Positions 1 through 6,684 of a stretch of DNA of 64,000 nucleotides are shown here, piece by piece. The notes below the pieces were generated by a model. That model searched no databases and was not told where the DNA came from. It worked only from the letters and a program-made list of their open reading frames with translations. How positions within the stretch are numbered: the stretch's first letter is position 1; the number at the start of each line of letters is the position of its first letter. The stretch is from positions 1-64,000 of the forward strand of contig JOEL01000020.1 in the NCBI GenBank assembly GCA_000720995.1, read 5' to 3'. The DNA is from Streptomyces celluloflavus. GTDB taxonomy: Bacteria > Actinomycetota > Actinomycetes > Streptomycetales > Streptomycetaceae. The position numbers were made by a program, and so were the translations under genes.

Positions 1-212
1 GCCCCGCTGCCGAAGCGCTGGACCGTGGAGCGGACCTACGGGTGGCTCATGTTCCACCGCCGCCTGGCCCGCGACTACGAAACCCTCCCCGCCCGCTCCG
101 AAGCCATGATCCACCTCGCCGTGACCGACCTCATGGCCCGCCGCCTCTCCGGCGAAACACCATCTCCTGGCGCGACCCTAAAACTCGGGATCAAACACAT
201 ATTCCGGGATAA
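1..212 (+). pseudogene. IS5-family transposase C-terminal fragment, frameshifted
   Basis: The frame open at position 1 reads [21 protein letters not shown] and then [12 protein letters not shown], the C-terminal DDE block (with the catalytic E of VERT) of actinobacterial IS5-type transposases. It holds to about residue GET at 157-159. The usual ending TISWRDP...IPG then continues in the +3 frame from 159 to a TAA at 210-212, so one indel separates the two parts. The 5' part lies outside the window. I read this as an element edge with a decayed or frameshifted transposase. A programmed frameshift is possible, but no slippery heptamer is obvious. It lies just downstream of the lanthipeptide exporter gene, which is on the opposite strand. 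Confidence 0.75.
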
Positions 213-423: not shown

Positions 424-2184
424 TCAGGGTGGGGGGATCGTCTGGCTTGTGACCAGGTCCCGGTACGGGGTGCAGCGTTGCAGGAGTGTGGGGTGGTTGC
501 CGGCGTCGAGCACGGTGCCCCGGTTCATCATGATCACGTGATGGGCGTGCTGGACGGTGGAGAGCCGGTGGGCGACCACGATCACCGCGCGGGTCGCCGC
601 CAGGTCTTCCATGATGGCGCGGAACCGGTGTTCGTTGATTCCGTCCAGCTGACTGGTGGGTTCGTCCAGCAGCACGATGTCGGCGTCGGAGAGGAGGGCG
701 CGTGCCAGTGCCATGCGCTGGCGCTGTCCTCCGGACAGGTCCGACTCCCGGCCGAGCGGTGTGTCGAGGCCCTGCGGGAGGCGGGTGATGTCGTCGGTGA
801 GTCCGACGGCGTCCAGGGCGGCCGTCAGTTCGTCGGCACCGGCGTGGCGTTCGCGGCCCAGCTGGAGGTTCTCCCGGGCGGTGGCCTCCAGAAGCGTGAA
901 TGCCTGGTCGACGTAGGCGATCCGGGCGCGCAGCTCGTCCAGTGGCCAGTGTCGGGTGTCGTGGCCGAGGACGGTGATCGAGCCGGAGGTGGGCCGGATG
1001 AACCGGTCGATGAGGGAGAGTGCGGTGCTCTTGCCGGCTCCTGAGGGGCCGACCACGGCGGTCAGGCCGGTGCGGGCGGCGGTGAAGGAGATTCCTCGCA
1101 GTGCGGGGTCGTCCGATCCGGTGTGGGTGTAGGAGACCTTGCGGAAGACCACGGACGGGGCTTGCGGGCGTGGAGTGGGGGCAGTGCGCGGGGTGTCCCG
1201 GGGGTCGCTCTCGGGAGCGAGCGAGAGGAGTGCGCTGCATCGGTCGCGGGCTGCGAGGCTGGCTTGCAGCCGGCTGAAGCCGGTGGCCAGAGCGCCGATC
1301 GAGGGAACGGTCTGCAACAGGTAGAGCAGGAACGCGGCGAAGGCCGCCACGTCGAGGCTGCCTGCGGCCAGCCGGGCGCCGCCGGTGAGGATCACAGCGA
1401 TCATCGCGAATTGATTGCCGAGCGACACCGCCGGCGGGATCAGGGCGTTGAGGCGGGCTCCCTCCAGCGAGACGGCCCGCAGCCGCTCGGCGGCCGCCGC
1501 CAGTGTGCGGGCGGCCATCGGTTCGGCCCGGTATGCCTTGATCGTGGTGAGGGCCTCCAGATTGGCCGTGAAACGCTGGGAGATATGTCCCACCGCGTCC
1601 TGCTGGCCGTTCACATTGGCCTTCATCCGGCGCACGACCAGCAGCACCAGAACCGTCAGCACGGCGAACGCCACGACGGTGACCAGGGTGAGGACCCAGT
1701 CGATCCACACCATCACGAGCAGCGTCGCCGCGACGGTCAATGCGGCCAGGGGAAGTTGGGTGACGACCTCGACCGCCTGCCTCAGCAGCAGTGCGTCCGA
1801 GGTGATGCGGGCGGTGAGTTCCCCCGTGCCCTGGGCACGCGCCACGGACAGGGGCAGTCGCAGGGTGTGGTCCATGATGCGGGTGCGCAGCCGGTAGGTC
1901 ATCCGCTCGCCGATCCGGGCCAGCAGGAAGCCCGACAGGGCCTGGGTGAGGGCGCTGCCGATGGTGGCGGCGCACATCAGCAGCACGTCGGGGCCGAGCA
2001 GCCGGTGCGCGGAGAAGTCAGTGATGATCTTCTGGACCAGAAGCGGGACGGCGAGCGCCGCCGCGGTGGAGACCAGAGCGAGCAGAAGGGCACAGAGCAG
2101 GCGGCCGGGCTCGGTGGTCAGTTCGCGGCGCAACCGTACGCGGCCCGGCGCGCGGTGGGCGGTACGAGGGGGCTGGTCGGCCAC
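424..2184 (-). CDS. ABC transporter, fused permease-ATPase, lanthipeptide exporter candidate
   Basis: The 586-residue half-transporter has an N-terminal membrane domain (about residues 25-310, hydrophobic runs such as [20 protein letters not shown]) and a C-terminal ATPase. Visible motifs are Walker A GPSGAGKS near residue 380, signature LSGGQRQRM near 482 and Walker [15 protein letters not shown] near 500. There is no N-terminal C39 peptidase, so it would export without cleaving a leader. It is the third gene of the minus-strand set after the LanKC and precursor genes, matching RamA/AmfA-type exporters. SapB-type loci usually encode two such half-transporters. Only one is present here, and the IS5 fragment sits just beyond it, so the partner may be lost or this one may act as a homodimer. 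A strong stem-loop precedes it. Confidence 0.85.
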
Positions 2185-2236: not shown

Positions 2237-2277
2237 GTCCGGGCCCGTGGCGGCGGTGTGCTGCCACGGGCCCGGAC
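2237..2277 (-). terminator. Stem-loop between precursor and exporter genes
   Basis: A perfect 15-bp inverted repeat (arms 2237-2251 and 2263-2277, left arm GTCCGGGCCCGTGGC, 11-nt loop) lies in the 162-nt gap between the precursor stop (2349) and the exporter start (2184). There is no following T-run, as is common for actinobacterial terminators. By position it could be a partial terminator or an mRNA-stabilising hairpin that keeps precursor transcript above exporter transcript. The structure is seen; the role is inferred. Confidence 0.6.
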
Positions 2278-2348
2278 GCCGGCCGGGCCTGGGTGGCGCC
2301 CGACCGGCTCCGCGGTGCTGTCTCCGTCCTACCGGGCGGAGGTACGGC

Positions 2349-2486
2349 TCAGAGGCAGAGCAGGGTGCTGACGGTGCTGACGGTGCAGTTGAGGACGCTC
2401 AGGGAGCTGCCGGTCGCGAGAACGTCGTCGATCGGGGCTGCCTCGGACTCGGGCGGCTCCATGGTCTGGAGGTCGAGGATCGCCAT
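2349..2486 (-). CDS. lanA: Class III lanthipeptide precursor peptide (SapB/AmfS-like)
   Basis: A 45-residue ORF begins MAILDLQTMEPPESE and ends CTVSTVSTLLCL. The leader carries the ILDLQ motif recognised by class III synthetases. The C-terminal core starts around TGSSLS and holds two exact SxxSxxxC units: S27/S30/C34 and S37/S40/C44. This is the labionin or lanthionine pattern of SapB and AmfS. A strong ribosome site (AAAGGAG, 7 nt upstream) fixes the ATG. It lies 81 nt after the LanKC gene and before the exporter, the expected order. The product should be a small amphipathic, surface-active lanthipeptide of the kind that supports aerial growth. The core sequence is hydrophobic (V, L, T) with almost no charge, unlike AmfS. 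Family assignment is firm; ring chemistry is inferred. Confidence 0.92.
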   Translation of the reverse strand: MAILDLQTMEPPESEAAPIDDVLATGSSLSVLNCTVSTVSTLLCL

Positions 2487-2567
2487 GGCTGTTCTCCTTT
2501 GTTGGATCGCCCGGCCGGCGGCCGGGAGTCGGTGGGGCGCGCCCGGGGCGCGCGGGCCGGTGGCCCG

Positions 2568-5132
2568 TCAGCCGGGAGTGCCGGTCCAGGGGAGGAAAGG
2601 GGTGCCGGCCAGGGCTGTGCCCAGGGCCAGCAGCACCCCGGCGGAGCCGGTCGCCAGGTCCGCCGAGAGCCGCAGCAGTTGGTCGCCGGGGAAGGCGAGC
2701 AGGCCCTGGTAGGAGACCTGGTGGAGGGCCAGCAGCGCCCGCTGCCGATCCAGCAGGGCCGTTCCGGCAGGGGCCGGCGCGCGGTGCCGGGTAAGGGCCA
2801 GGTAGCCGAGCAGCCCCGCCCGGCCGTTGAACAGGCCCGGCTGAATGACGAACTCGGGCTCGGCGGCGCGGCGGATCGCTTGCTCGTGGCAGGCCGAGGG
2901 CGCGTCGGGGCGGTGGGCCAGCAGGGTGTTGAGCGCGAGGCCGATGCCGGCGCTGCCGGTCTCGACGTAGGGCAGGACTCGGCGTCCGTCGGCGACCTGG
3001 AAGGTACCGTCGGCGAGGCTCGTGCACCGGTCGAGGTCCAGTTCCACCAAGGTCTGCGCCTGGTCGAGCAGCGCGTGTTCGCCGATGTGCTCGTACAAGC
3101 GGACCAGGGCGAGCGCCGTACCGGAGGCTCCGGCCAGCAGGCCGGCCGTGCGCCGGGGGTCGCTGCGGCCGGCCTTCTCCAGGGCGTCGGCGCAGGAGCG
3201 GGCGAGGACCAGTGCCTGCTCCAGCAGCCGGTGCTCGCCGGTGGCTGCGGCGAAGTGCAGGAGCGTCAGGGCGATACCGGGCGCACCGGCGGCCAGGCCC
3301 GGCTGCGGTTCCTCGTCCGGAGCCGTGGCCAGGCGCCGCAGGAGCGCCAGGGCTGCGTCGCGTTCGCCGAGCAGGTCCAGCACATATGCCACGCCATGTC
3401 CGCCGAAGTACAGTCCCGGCTCGACGGGGCGGGTGCGAGAAGCCCGGACCAGCCATCGGACGTGGTCGGGGGCGATCGTGGCGCCCGTGGTGTGCAGGGC
3501 GTAGAGCACACCGGCCGCGCCGTAGGCCAGGCCCAGGCCGCCGTGGGTGAACTGGGCGACATCGCCGGGAAAAAGACGGTCGGTTCGGTCGGGGGTGGCC
3601 ATCGCCGTGATACCGGCGGCCAGCGAGTCCCTGATCCGCGGCCAGTCGGCCGTCGGCGCTGTCAGCAGCGCGTTGAGCTGCTCACGGTCGTGGCCCAGCT
3701 CGGGTCGGCGGGAGCGGCCGTCGGACGGGGCGGGGCCGAGCAGGCGACGGATCTCGTCGGTGTAGCCGTCAGGGACCGGGAAGCGGAGCTCGATGGCGTC
3801 GGCGAGTTCATCGGCCTTGCCCGGGTCGAGGGCGGGCAGCTGCGCCAGCGGCAGGAACAGCCAGAGCCGGATCGCGGCCAGCCCGTACCGGTCGATCCGC
3901 GTCCCGGTGCACCCCGGGGGAGCGGCGAAGCCGGCAGCGCCCAGTGCCGGGCGGACGAAGTCCTCCACAGTGCTGGCGAGCTCGAAGTCGATGAAGCAGA
4001 TGTCGCCGTTCGCCCGAATGATCAGATTGCGGGGGTGGAGGTCGCCGAAGACCACCCCGCGAGCATGGATCGCCGCCAGGACCTCTTCGATGCGGTCCAC
4101 GATCCCGAGCGCCTCGCGGGTGTACTCGGCGACAGCGGCTTCGTCGGCGTCCGGGTGGATCAGCGGGTAGCGGGTGGCCAGCCACTCGCTCAGTAATCGG
4201 CCCTCGACGAATTCCTGGACCAGGAACTCGTGCTCCCAGGCAGTCAGCAGCCCGTGCTGCGCGGGTACGCCGGGCACACCTGCCAGCCGGACGAGGATGT
4301 CGTGCTCGTTGCGCAGCCGGGTCACCGCGTCGACCCCGCGCTGGTCCAGGCCCGCGAACGGCCGGGCCTCCTTCAGCACCAGCCGGGGTCCAGCGTCCCC
4401 GTCGCGCGCCAGGTACACGCCCCCCGCGTTGGAGAAATGCAGGACGCGCTCCACGGTGTACGGCAGCCCGGTGTCGCGCGACGCCGCCCGCTCGGCCACC
4501 GCAGCTGCGATGAAGTCCGGCACCGGAGCCCAGTCGGGGACGGCGAATCCGGTGCCGCGGACATCGGGCACCAGACGGCCCTCGGGGCCGATGAGTGCGA
4601 GTACCCGCGCTCCGGCGTCGTTGCGACAGTAGCGCTCCGCGAATCCCCCGTACCTCAGGTAGAGCGGGCCTTCGCCCCATCGCAAGTCGCTGAGGATGTA
4701 CGGCCCCTTGCGGCCGGCCAGGACACGGCCGAGGCCGTCGAGGCATCGCTCCAATTCCGCCTGATCCACCGGGTAGAGGGTGCAGAACTTTCCGCTGGAT
4801 TCGCGCGGCGCGTACTTGGAGTTCTGCACCTGGAGGATGGGCAGTCCGCGCAGGAACTTGAACGTGACCCGCTCTCGCAGGCAGTACGCGTGGACCGCCT
4901 CCAGCACCTCTTCGGCGTCCCCCGCTTCCGAGGACACGTGGATCTTCCAGCCCTGCGCGGGCAACTGAACGTCAACGGGCCGCACAACCGCCCAGATCTC
5001 CTGGTCAACGCGTTCCCAGCCCGCAGGCAGCGGCCACTCGACGGCCGCGAACTCTTCGTGCGCGCCCCAGCGTCGGGGCGAGTCGTAAAAGAGCGGATCG
5101 GCATAGGCATAAGCCTCGTACCGGTTATCCAT
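2568..5132 (-). CDS. lanKC: Class III lanthipeptide synthetase LanKC (RamC/AmfT-like)
   Basis: The 854-residue protein has the three-part LanKC layout: an N-terminal lyase region (about 1-220), a Ser/Thr kinase-like domain (about 230-500) and a C-terminal LanC-like cyclase domain (about 520-854) rich in G-x-G-x repeats (GGLGLAYGAAGVLYAL, GLLAGASGTALALV). The kinase catalytic loop VVFGDLHPRN (Asp near 362) and FIDFE metal-binding segment (near 382) are intact. The usual LanC zinc ligands are not evident, which is normal for class III. The enzyme would phosphorylate Ser residues of the precursor, eliminate phosphate and cyclise onto Cys. The ATG at 5132 (MDNRYEAYAY) is chosen for its GAGGAGGG ribosome site; upstream in-frame starts lack one. 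No RamR-like regulator lies beside it. Downstream are the precursor and exporter genes. Confidence 0.92.
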   Translation of the reverse strand: MDNRYEAYAYADPLFYDSPRRWGAHEEFAAVEWPLPAGWERVDQEIWAVVRPVDVQLPAQGWKIHVSSEAGDAEEVLEAVHAYCLRERVTFKFLRGLPILQVQNSKYAPRESSGKFCTLYPVDQAELERCLDGLGRVLAGRKGPYILSDLRWGEGPLYLRYGGFAERYCRNDAGARVLALIGPEGRLVPDVRGTGFAVPDWAPVPDFIAAAVAERAASRDTGLPYTVERVLHFSNAGGVYLARDGDAGPRLVLKEARPFAGLDQRGVDAVTRLRNEHDILVRLAGVPGVPAQHGLLTAWEHEFLVQEFVEGRLLSEWLATRYPLIHPDADEAAVAEYTREALGIVDRIEEVLAAIHARGVVFGDLHPRNLIIRANGDICFIDFELASTVEDFVRPALGAAGFAAPPGCTGTRIDRYGLAAIRLWLFLPLAQLPALDPGKADELADAIELRFPVPDGYTDEIRRLLGPAPSDGRSRRPELGHDREQLNALLTAPTADWPRIRDSLAAGITAMATPDRTDRLFPGDVAQFTHGGLGLAYGAAGVLYALHTTGATIAPDHVRWLVRASRTRPVEPGLYFGGHGVAYVLDLLGERDAALALLRRLATAPDEEPQPGLAAGAPGIALTLLHFAAATGEHRLLEQALVLARSCADALEKAGRSDPRRTAGLLAGASGTALALVRLYEHIGEHALLDQAQTLVELDLDRCTSLADGTFQVADGRRVLPYVETGSAGIGLALNTLLAHRPDAPSACHEQAIRRAAEPEFVIQPGLFNGRAGLLGYLALTRHRAPAPAGTALLDRQRALLALHQVSYQGLLAFPGDQLLRLSADLATGSAGVLLALGTALAGTPFLPWTGTPG

Positions 5133-5444
5133 CAAAGCCCTCCTCGGCGCCGGGTGTGCAGGCATGTGTGCGTAATGCAGCAAAGGAGCCGGCCGCTGTC
5201 ACGGCCCACGGAACCTGACGTTGCCTACGCATCAGCGCCTGTCGGCAGGAGAGACCGGAAGAGCCGGCCCGCGATGCGACTATCCGAAATATGGAGGTGG
5301 CGGGAGAGCAAAAGCAACAGCACAGACAAGACAATGATGTTTTCTAACGGGGGGTGAAGTGATTCGGGCGCTCAGGGGGCGCTGTCAAGAAGAGGGACGG
5401 GCCTCGGGACTGGGGTGGGCATCGAGTTTCTTGATCGTCCGGGA

Positions 5445-5552
5445 GGTGCCTGCTGTGAAAAGCGCGATGTGAAGGCCGCCAAGGGGTTCATGGCAAAGCT
5501 GATGAAGGAACAGCAGCACGTGCCCAGAGTGCTGGTCGCCGACAAGGCCAAC
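5445..5552 (+). pseudogene. IS6-family transposase fragment
   Basis: About 30 codons, with KRDVKAAKGFMAKLMKEQ and then VPRVLVADK, match the segment just before the second catalytic Asp of IS6-type DDE transposases (normally KAAxRFFxKLL...VPRVxxTDK). Flanking sequence in the same frame is unrelated: downstream it runs straight into antisense sensor-kinase sequence. It is a short internal scrap, not a gene, and seems to have joined or replaced the 3' end of the kinase remnant. Confidence 0.55.
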
Positions 5553-5850
5553 GTGCGACGGCGGTTCCGAGCCCGCTGCCCTCTGACCGCGTGCGGGCGG
5601 AGTCCGGCCCTGTAGAAATGGCCGAAGATATGCGCGAGTACCTCGGGGAGCGGCCCGGGTCCGTGGTCGGTGACCTCGATGGTCACCGCTGTCCGCGGTG
5701 AGTGCGACCGTTACCGGTGTCCGACCGTGCCGTAGTGCGTTGCCGACGAGGTTGACGCTGGTCACGCCGGAGCAGCGGCGGTCCACCATCGCCCTGATGC
5801 CGTCGGCTCCGGCTCGGCGAACCGCGCATCAGACAACCGCGGCAGCCTGG
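5553..5850 (-). pseudogene. Sensor histidine kinase ATPase-domain remnant
   Basis: On the minus strand three frames in succession carry kinase ATPase boxes. They are an N-box NLVGNALRHG with TPVTVAL, a G1 box VTDHGPGPLPEVLAHIFGHF and then FYRA, and a G2 box SEGSGLGTAVA. Upstream in yet another frame is DARFAEPEPTASG. The order and spacing match the end of a two-component sensor kinase, but at least three frameshifts break it and the N-terminal sensor and HisKA parts are missing. It ends where the IS6-like fragment begins. Each box is clear by eye; the full extent is approximate. Confidence 0.7.
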
Positions 5851-6152
5851 GCGGCCCCTTCCGCACGCGCCGCAGGTGACGGCCGGGTGACGCCCGGCGA
5901 CGGGGCGGGGATCCTGACGTGCACGCCGCCGCGCACCGCCTCCCGTACCTGCGCCCTGGACCGCTCATCAAGATCCTCCGGGAGCACCTGGCTGGCGAGC
6001 TCGGCGCAGCGGCTCGCCCAGCTCGTGGCCGCGGGCCGGGCCGGCTGGCTGCCCCGGGTGATCCGCAGTTGTCGGCACCGGTCGGCGAACAAGGACTCCA
6101 CCGCCCGCAGCAGGGCCTCGTCGGCGGCACGCTCGGCGGCCGCCTCGGCCAT
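5829..6152 (-). CDS. Unrecognised 107-aa ORF in a decayed region
   Basis: The ORF begins MAEAAAERAADEALLRAVES and ends AAAVV. It is Arg/Ala-rich with helical character and one Cys-Arg pair near residue 35, and I recognise no family. It lies between the kinase remnant and the integrase fragment, and its 3' end overlaps sequence that reads as kinase in another frame. It may therefore be a remnant or a chance ORF. No clear ribosome site precedes the ATG. Confidence 0.25.
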   Translation of the reverse strand: MAEAAAERAADEALLRAVESLFADRCRQLRITRGSQPARPAATSWASRCAELASQVLPEDLDERSRAQVREAVRGGVHVRIPAPSPGVTRPSPAARAEGAAQAAAVV

Positions 6153-6171
6153 CGCCCGGTTCGGATACCGG

Positions 6172-6684
6172 TGCTGGGAAGACGTTGAATTGGGAAACGC
6201 CACGATTGTGATTGCCAACACGCGCACGATGATGGGCAACCGGTACGTGGTGGAGAAGGACACCAAGTCTCTTGCGGGCGAGCGGGATTTGCCGCTGCCG
6301 GCTCCGGTGCTGGCCGCCCTCAAGGCTTTCAGGGCTCTCCAAACCGAGGAGAAGCTCGCTCTGGGCGAGGCGTATGTGGCGTCAGGCCACGTGCTGGTGC
6401 ATGAGGCGGGAGATGCTTTCACGGTCAAGCAGCTTCGTCGGCGCGCGTACCGGCTCATGGAGCTTCTCGGCCTCCGTCGCGTCAGGCTCTACGACGCACG
6501 CTCGTCGTGCTTCACCTTCCTGGCCGACAACGGCGTGCCGGACCGCATTCTCGCGCGATGGGCCGGGCACACGAAGGTGAAGACGACCAAGAGGTGGTAC
6601 GTCAAGCCGGACGTAACGGATCTCCGCGGAGCCACCACCACATGGGATGGCCTGCACTGGGTTGCGGTGGAGGGGCAAGCGTGA
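6172..6684 (+). pseudogene. Tyrosine recombinase (integrase) C-terminal fragment
   Basis: From CWEDVELGNATIVIANTRT onward the frame reads as the catalytic half of an actinobacterial integrase: KSLAGERDLPLPAPVLAALKA, then LYDARSSCFTFLADNGVPD, GHTKVKTTKRWYVKP and a TGA at 6684. The box II Arg (in YDAR), the GHT His and the nucleophile Tyr (in RWYVKP) are visible. The usual DARHSC reads DARSSC. The core-binding domain and the first catalytic Arg region are missing, so it cannot be functional alone. It marks the edge of a former integrative element beside pcaL. I could not see a tRNA or clear att repeat nearby. Confidence 0.8.

Follow-up and report, generated by a model that had tools for sequence, protein, structure and literature searches.

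The window analysed here, a 64,000-nucleotide stretch of Streptomyces celluloflavus DNA representing the start of one contig of an 8.68-Mb draft genome (193 contigs), carries near its first position three genes for a class III lanthipeptide. These are lanKC (2568..5132, minus strand), encoding a class III lanthionine synthetase (lyase-kinase-cyclase) of 854 residues, lanA (2349..2486, minus strand) for a precursor of 45 residues, and lanT (424..2184, minus strand; GTG start), whose product is a single ABC exporter of 586 residues with a transmembrane and an ATPase domain. All three open reading frames (ORFs) are intact and lie on the same strand in the order lanKC-lanA-lanT, lanKC being located 81 nt upstream and lanT 164 nt downstream of lanA. 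Together with the exporter gene at 424-2184, the segment 2349-5132 makes up a real and intact SapB/AmfS-family cassette of three genes for a class III lanthipeptide. A first-pass annotation of the same DNA had correctly placed lanA between a LanKC and an ABC exporter gene; the extent it gave to the locus, 2349 to 5132, covers lanA and lanKC but omits the exporter gene, which is part of the cassette.

The lanA product, MAILDLQTMEPPESEAAPIDDVLATGSSLSVLNCTVSTVSTLLCL, features the leader motif ILDLQ and a core of 19 residues, S27-L45 (SSLSVLNCTVSTVSTLLCL; 2352..2408, minus strand), with two exact SxxSxxxC ring motifs, S27-S30-C34 (2385-2408) and S37-S40-C44 (2355-2378). The reading frame of 45 codons, its coordinates and strand, the leader and both motifs are as previously read from the sequence, and so are the further Ser/Thr residues S28, T35, T38 and T41, to which T25 adds a fifth. 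LanA scores 59 bits against NCBIfam NF033212 of the SapB/AmfS family (cut-off 25, E=3.5e-16) and 56.6 bits against Pfam PF19402 RamS (cut-off 24.3, E=3.5e-15), and it also shows the LxLQ leader and the two SxxSx(2-5)C motifs of this family. Given the 59 bits of the NCBI naming model against a required 25, the concern that so short a gene could be missed by annotation is a weak one. The Shine-Dalgarno sequence AAGGAG (2494..2499, minus strand) lies 7 nt from the ATG and is kept in all eight relatives inspected. In an alignment of 12 precursors, 11 core positions are invariant (S27, L29, S30, N33, C34, S37, T38, S40, T41, C44 and L45), and nonsynonymous divergence (dN) stays below synonymous divergence (dS) in 8 of 8 pairs (0.13-0.18 versus 0.24-0.44, over just 45 codons). 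Past D21, the peptide is devoid of D, E, K and R, and the mean hydropathy of the core (1.23) ranges above that of AmfS (0.97) and below that of durhapeptin (1.61).

LanKC matches NF038151 with 1017 bits (cut-off 575) over residues 5-838, which together with the precursor score bears out the earlier designation as a SapB-like class III lanthipeptide locus. Its Pfam domains, RamC_N (251.8 bits), kinase and LanC-like, follow the lyase-kinase-cyclase order, and the kinase motifs GDLHPRN and DFE are present. The lyase residues were placed by aligning the protein to one chain of 8sao, a solved structure of a class III LanKC that we take to be ThurKC; K63, H65, K92, K106, K115, D149, R160 and R192 of the window protein align with all eight ThurKC lyase residues. 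The latter are named as K65, H67, K94, K108, K117, D152, R163 and R191 in the accessible part of PMC10604976. LanT exceeds the cut-offs of PF00664 and PF00005, and Pfam detected no peptidase domain in it, nor did the neighbouring genes scanned include a recognisable leader peptidase.

RamS-family precursors occur in 108 of 199 genomes of a Streptomyces sample, and one scan of public genomes yielded 17 loci; four of the 149 loci scanned (L009, L016, L017 and L021) gave no precursor. The 126 precursors of the genus sample, made up of 120 fetched from it (the two weak rows G042:C4 and G018:C30 excepted), five others and that of the window, were assigned to types by letter patterns of our own definition and comprise 34 of SapB type, 14 of AmfS type, 31 of durhapeptin type, five of window type and 42 others. 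When charges are counted over the stretch that begins with the first SxxS..C motif and runs to the last residue, His excluded, 43 of the 126 cores, durhapeptin type included, are free of D, E, K and R. Absent charge is therefore no mark of novelty: the uncharged core described in the first-pass annotation does exist, but it does not set the peptide apart.

At E<=1e-4, the window peptide is matched in 13 of 392 genomes of its own genus, 11 of which read as window type, one as AmfS type (L033) and one as other (L034); the 11 of 392 represent a lower bound, since the window-type cores L182 and L187 of a second genus missed this threshold. Throughout the family, 45 of 394 genomes matched, 25 of them at >=73% identity (16 in g14, three in g3, three in g7, one in g2 and two in the host's own genus). 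We take g14 to be Kitasatospora, since two of its loci are identical over 3135 bases to named Kitasatospora loci, L171 to L006 (K. indigofera) and L178 to L012 (K. purpeofusca). Another g14 locus, L177, equals L011, a record named Streptomyces sp. NRRL F-6131, so that L011 also falls into the genus thus assigned. Out of 70 g14 genomes searched, 35 hold a RamS-family match, and a search with the window peptide itself reached E<=1e-4 in 27. Thirty of the 35 were read, the lower-scoring G434, G465, G483, G428 and G469 lying outside this set; 28 fit the strict window-type pattern and none is of SapB or AmfS type. The two others are L192 and L193: in L192, the second residue ahead of the first cysteine is Ile, and in L193, Ser takes the place of Asn before that cysteine and STAST that of STVST. 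The Kitasatospora-type core follows approximately S-x-L-S-x-x-N-C-x-x-STVST-x-CL, with Asn preceding the first ring cysteine in 29 of the 30 loci read.

Contrary to the initial claim of a new core sequence, the 19 residues SSLSVLNCTVSTVSTLLCL recur identically in L195 (genome G447, g14), and cores of the same pattern are found in many genomes. The uncharacterised Kitasatospora-type precursors L006 and L195 belong to the same subfamily but have leaders that differ from that of the window; the LanKC and exporter of L006 are 82% and 81% identical to those of the window, and its core differs at three positions. Lack of charge was also rejected as a defining trait of the window type, both for the uncharged cores counted above and for L184, a Kitasatospora-type locus with a Glu in its core. 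The locus is thus a little-studied branch of the known SapB/AmfS family with a core shared with other genomes. It deserves a note for its unlinked regulator, the single exporter of its subclade and its hold on Kitasatospora.

The position of the synthetase was assessed in a quick maximum-likelihood tree supported by Shimodaira-Hasegawa-like approximate likelihood ratios (SH-aLRT) only. Seventy rows were chosen, namely all 21 window-type loci with a LanKC, three of the four precursor-less loci and, at random, 9 SapB-, 7 AmfS-, 10 durhapeptin-type and 20 other rows; 69 entered the tree, as L010 was dropped, while L020 was filled to 30%. All 20 window-type rows form one group (SH-aLRT 100) with L009, whose precursor is cut off, and apart from it stand 44 other rows that hold every sampled SapB, AmfS and durhapeptin type. 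The window LanKC is 71-82% identical to its subclade and 55-63% to the remaining window-type enzymes, and its identity to those of any other type does not exceed 49%. Within the subclade, rows of the host's own genus are scattered: the window stands with L006 (g14), L014 (g7) and L020 (Actinacidiphila), L008 and L036 group with L009 and Yinghuangia, and L037 stands apart. The LanKC of L036 is identical to that of L008 (Streptomyces populi), of which L036 is a copy. From this scatter we infer that the cassette may have moved between genera, with caution because the support of some within-subclade joins is weak (86-90) and the composition of the cassette is not odd (71.4% G+C versus 72.7% for 6700-64000, which gives no hint of foreign origin).

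The first-pass annotation had raised the question of whether homologous loci conserve a different ORF in the slot of lanA. They keep lanA there: nine other distinct subclade genomes show the order lanKC-lanA-lanT, and a tenth, L038, shows lanA-lanT with lanA truncated by the contig end, while L009 ends 196 nt after LanKC. Automatic gene picking across the nine subclade loci and the window found only synthetase and exporter to be shared; other neighbours differ between the loci, save for the close-kin pairs L011/L012 and L008/L009, and among eight exporter-side neighbours scanned, four match unrelated families and four match nothing.

All 11 subclade loci whose sequence extends far enough downstream, from 10 distinct genomes, have exactly one exporter, 72-81% identical to LanT of the window, and no second. 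The remaining window-type loci feature two RamAB-like genes in nine of ten cases and none in L019. ABC genes were counted by homology, since a motif-based count is unreliable (zero in 15 of 33 complete SapB-type loci, with many zero loci in fact having transporters). On this basis, all 71 complete SapB-, AmfS- and durhapeptin-type loci hold two or three ABC genes, as do 34 of 43 complete other-type loci, two of which hold one and seven none. At >60% identity, the exporter type of the window is absent from all 115 other-type loci with an ABC match, and where it aligns with RamAB-like proteins, the identity amounts to 27-34%. For L039, L041 and L118, the ABC domains were confirmed by Pfam. Because the window begins at a contig end and a transposase fragment follows the exporter gene, a second exporter gene could in principle have been lost or separated by transposase insertion; with a single exporter in 11 of 11 subclade loci, we consider such a loss very improbable and have set it aside.

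Compared with SapB (RamS) of Streptomyces coelicolor (ramCSAB-ramR), the window peptide shares the leader motif, a pair of SxxSxxxC motifs set two residues apart, a LanKC gene immediately upstream and a RamS model score over the cut-off. In contrast to the uncharged core of the window, all 34 SapB-type cores sampled hold one or two charged residues; moreover, the window LanKC is 42-47% identical to SapB-type enzymes and falls into a separate clade, one exporter of another type replaces the two of the ram cluster and no RamR-like gene is linked. The locus thus lacks the two ABC half-transporter genes and the adjacent RamR-type regulator that characterise ram/amf clusters. AmfS of the amf cluster of Streptomyces griseus has the kind of precursor and synthetase and the two-residue motif spacer in common with the window, but AmfS-type cores carry one charged residue (14 of 14 sampled) and end in CTP, their LanKCs are 38-44% identical to that of the window, and complete AmfS-type loci contain two or three ABC genes. 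A third known system is durhapeptin (durKC, durA, durT) of Streptomyces durhamensis, characterised in 2026, whose 21-residue core, TGASTASLLSCVSAASVLLCL, is given in the accessible part of PMC13380574, as are all statements cited from it here. This peptide bears the same NCBI family name and, like that of the window, is uncharged and hydrophobic, ends in LLCL and contains two SxxSxxxC motifs; it differs in other core letters and in having one residue between the motifs rather than two, and its locus includes a second ABC gene and a response regulator (PMC13380574). Sampled durhapeptin-type LanKCs belong to another clade and are 42-45% identical to that of the window, DurKC itself lying outside the comparison. 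In the literature searched by title and abstract, no product of the window-type lineage was found, though supplementary precursor lists may hold one, and core strings of the lineage gave no match in the literature searched.

Taken together, we consider it probable, by roughly two chances in three, that the locus is a complete SapB/AmfS-family class III cassette that makes a two-ring surface-active morphogen, probably the only SapB-like one of the strain. The analysis itself shows the three genes, their family and conservation, the clade of the LanKC and the lone exporter of the subclade. It also found neither a second RamS match over the cut-off nor a second LanKC in the host draft genome, where the next best LanKC match has 30% identity across residues 235-407. 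The dehydrations, rings, export, leader cleavage and morphogen role are carried over from the family. LanKC would bind the ILDLQ leader and phosphorylate Ser27, Ser30, Ser37 and Ser40, and elimination of the phosphates would yield four dehydroalanines, upon which one lanthionine or labionin ring could be closed on each of Cys34 and Cys44; more dehydrations are possible among the five other Ser/Thr residues of T25-L45. With four dehydrations, the calculated monoisotopic mass is 2025.03 for T25-L45 (2097.07 if unmodified) and 1866.96 for S27-L45, and any further one would lower it by 18.01. In a durhapeptin variant, two labionins are supported, and ring type is described as hard to predict from the synthetase sequence alone (PMC13380574). 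LanT, presumably as a homodimer, would secrete the peptide, and since Pfam shows LanT without a peptidase domain and the scan of the neighbours revealed no leader peptidase either, the leader would be cut off by a protease encoded elsewhere, as is the case for class III peptide proteases of other bacteria that are encoded unlinked (PMC8960859, accessible part). The uncharged hydrophobic two-ring product may then help hyphae to leave the wet surface. We infer this morphogen activity from the family, the hydrophobicity, the presence of chaplins in the genome and the lack of another SapB-like locus in the draft. It is favoured as well by durhapeptin, likewise an uncharged two-motif peptide, whose variant S26T induced aerial hyphae in four Streptomyces strains (PMC13380574). 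Chaplins are other known coat proteins of aerial hyphae, and with 10 chaplin-domain matches the host evidently possesses such proteins.

Several observations weigh against the assignment as a morphogen. A linked RamR-like gene, searched by tblastn with two RamR-like queries, is present in none of 12 subclade loci (L009 and L038 being short), and the best RamR-like proteins elsewhere in the host genome are 41-43% identical and unlinked, so that developmental control as in SapB, AmfS and durhapeptin clusters is not to be assumed. Genome G071 carries a window-type (L037) and a SapB-type locus (L050) together, for which reason the two types need not be interchangeable. The durhapeptin variant S26T was without effect in the durhapeptin producer as well as in S. 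coelicolor and S. griseus, and the native durhapeptin mass was fitted with six dehydrations plus glutathione, that of S26T with four (PMC13380574); role and dehydration count of the window peptide are correspondingly unsure. Furthermore, the transposase fragment and integrase remnant that flank the cassette at the contig end leave room for a recently acquired or silent cassette.

Regarding the regulator, the remaining window-type loci yielded a linked RamR-like match in one of ten cases (28% identity), compared with 30 of 34 SapB-type, 28 of 31 durhapeptin-type, 10 of 14 AmfS-type and 35 of 47 other loci. The queries stem from SapB- and durhapeptin-type loci, such that a very diverged regulator could escape, and the stretches searched vary in length, some ending at contig ends and the window-type ones being mostly longer. 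According to Pfam, L049 (SapB type) and L118 (durhapeptin type) encode a LuxR-type response regulator, and L041 and L045 a dehydrogenase in that position. Missing linkage to a RamR-like gene is hence a trait of the entire window-type lineage, and the single exporter one of the subclade only.

These data also bear on the idea that the cassette was acquired with mobile elements and is now decaying or silent, its expression having been lost. On the exporter side, only 423 nt are readable past lanT, including a C-terminal fragment of a DDE transposase (1-212, plus strand; PF13586 with 17.7 bits, below the cut-off of 29.2) that is cut by the contig end, and the opposite flank holds a phage-type integrase remnant (5698-6684, plus strand; PF00589, 31 bits); both agree with such a history, as does the lack of a linked RamR-like gene. 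Against this, the three ORFs and the ribosome binding site are intact, the catalytic residues are kept, dN is lower than dS, and the missing RamR-like gene is normal for the lineage, as the relatives are without one too. We therefore judge decay or silencing to be quite unlikely.

A functional cassette whose product serves as an antimicrobial or kin signal instead of a surfactant-like morphogen has a somewhat stronger case, though it still appears unlikely, at about one chance in five. Class III peptides have diverse activities. The subclade is patchy within the host's own genus, and its neighbours vary from genome to genome, which would fit an accessory trait; the unlinked regulator and the coexistence of both types in G071 also speak for this reading. 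Durhapeptin S26T induced aerial hyphae in four Streptomyces strains, out of 17 with durhapeptin or related clusters, and thus acts on some strains only (PMC13380574). Conversely, the core is uncharged and hydrophobic like that of a known morphogen, and all 30 Kitasatospora precursors read are of, or near to, the window type, as would be expected of a core function in that genus, tempered by the half of the 70 g14 genomes that are without any RamS-family match.

Beyond the single strain, the distribution suggests that at least two LanKC lineages with a deep split between them serve the SapB-like slot of streptomycete development, and that the less studied of the two predominates in one genus. 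More tentatively, and with slightly less than even confidence, a separate Kitasatospora-type morphogen lineage may replace SapB in Kitasatospora and have left the linkage to ramR; one subclade would have swapped the RamAB pair for a single exporter and, now a compact cassette of three genes, have arrived in a few streptomycetes, here as the only SapB-like peptide. If true, this would amount to a private developmental dialect that is movable between genera. With its minimal set of three genes, the cassette makes it easy to examine if morphogens from different lineages can substitute for each other, and genome G071, with the window-type locus L037 beside the SapB-type precursor L050, would suit such an exchangeability test.

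The gap between lanA and lanT contains a covarying stem-loop (2278..2308, minus strand) of 12 pairs, with 97.5% of cells paired, four pairs changed on both sides (reached by 15 of 500 shuffles) and a covariation score that beats all 500 shuffles; it is accompanied by a second, longer stem-loop with arms of 18 nt (2237..2277, minus strand). The intergenic segment 2205-2348 folds with z = -5.1, and Rfam gave zero matches in the window; a brake that reduces lanT relative to lanA would be a likely role of the stem-loops. As a special feature of the lineage they were dropped: among ten lanA-lanT stretches compared, those of L014 and L020 barely surpass shuffled sequences in folding (z -1.5), and stable folds 3' of the precursor gene are found in all types sampled (median z -2.6 to -4.9, 25 shuffles each), so that the stem-loops are treated as an ordinary habit of the family.

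Beyond LanKC, six genes are unrelated to the cassette, comprising a carboxymuconolactone decarboxylase/hydrolase, a metallo-beta-lactamase fold protein, an exo/endonuclease, a DUF6278 protein, an ABC ATPase and a solute-binding protein. A small ORF at 5372-5686 (minus strand) resembles by eye the final part of a histidine kinase ATPase domain and has no Pfam match.

Variations of precursor number and structure were also seen among the relatives. Genome G572 (C739:34165-34511) holds two identical precursor copies in tandem (L173 and L181), less than 80 nt apart, and the g14 genome G483 shows three consecutive RamS-family matches (C1:121771-122273). In L166 (at about 4684, minus strand), a RamS-family ORF carries a strongly basic C-terminal tail replacing the second ring motif, on a stretch that also holds a LanKC 47% identical to that of the window. 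Finally, the Micromonospora LanKC loci L015 (8720) and L018 (3374) feature a 34-residue candidate precursor with a single ring motif (SSISIACC).

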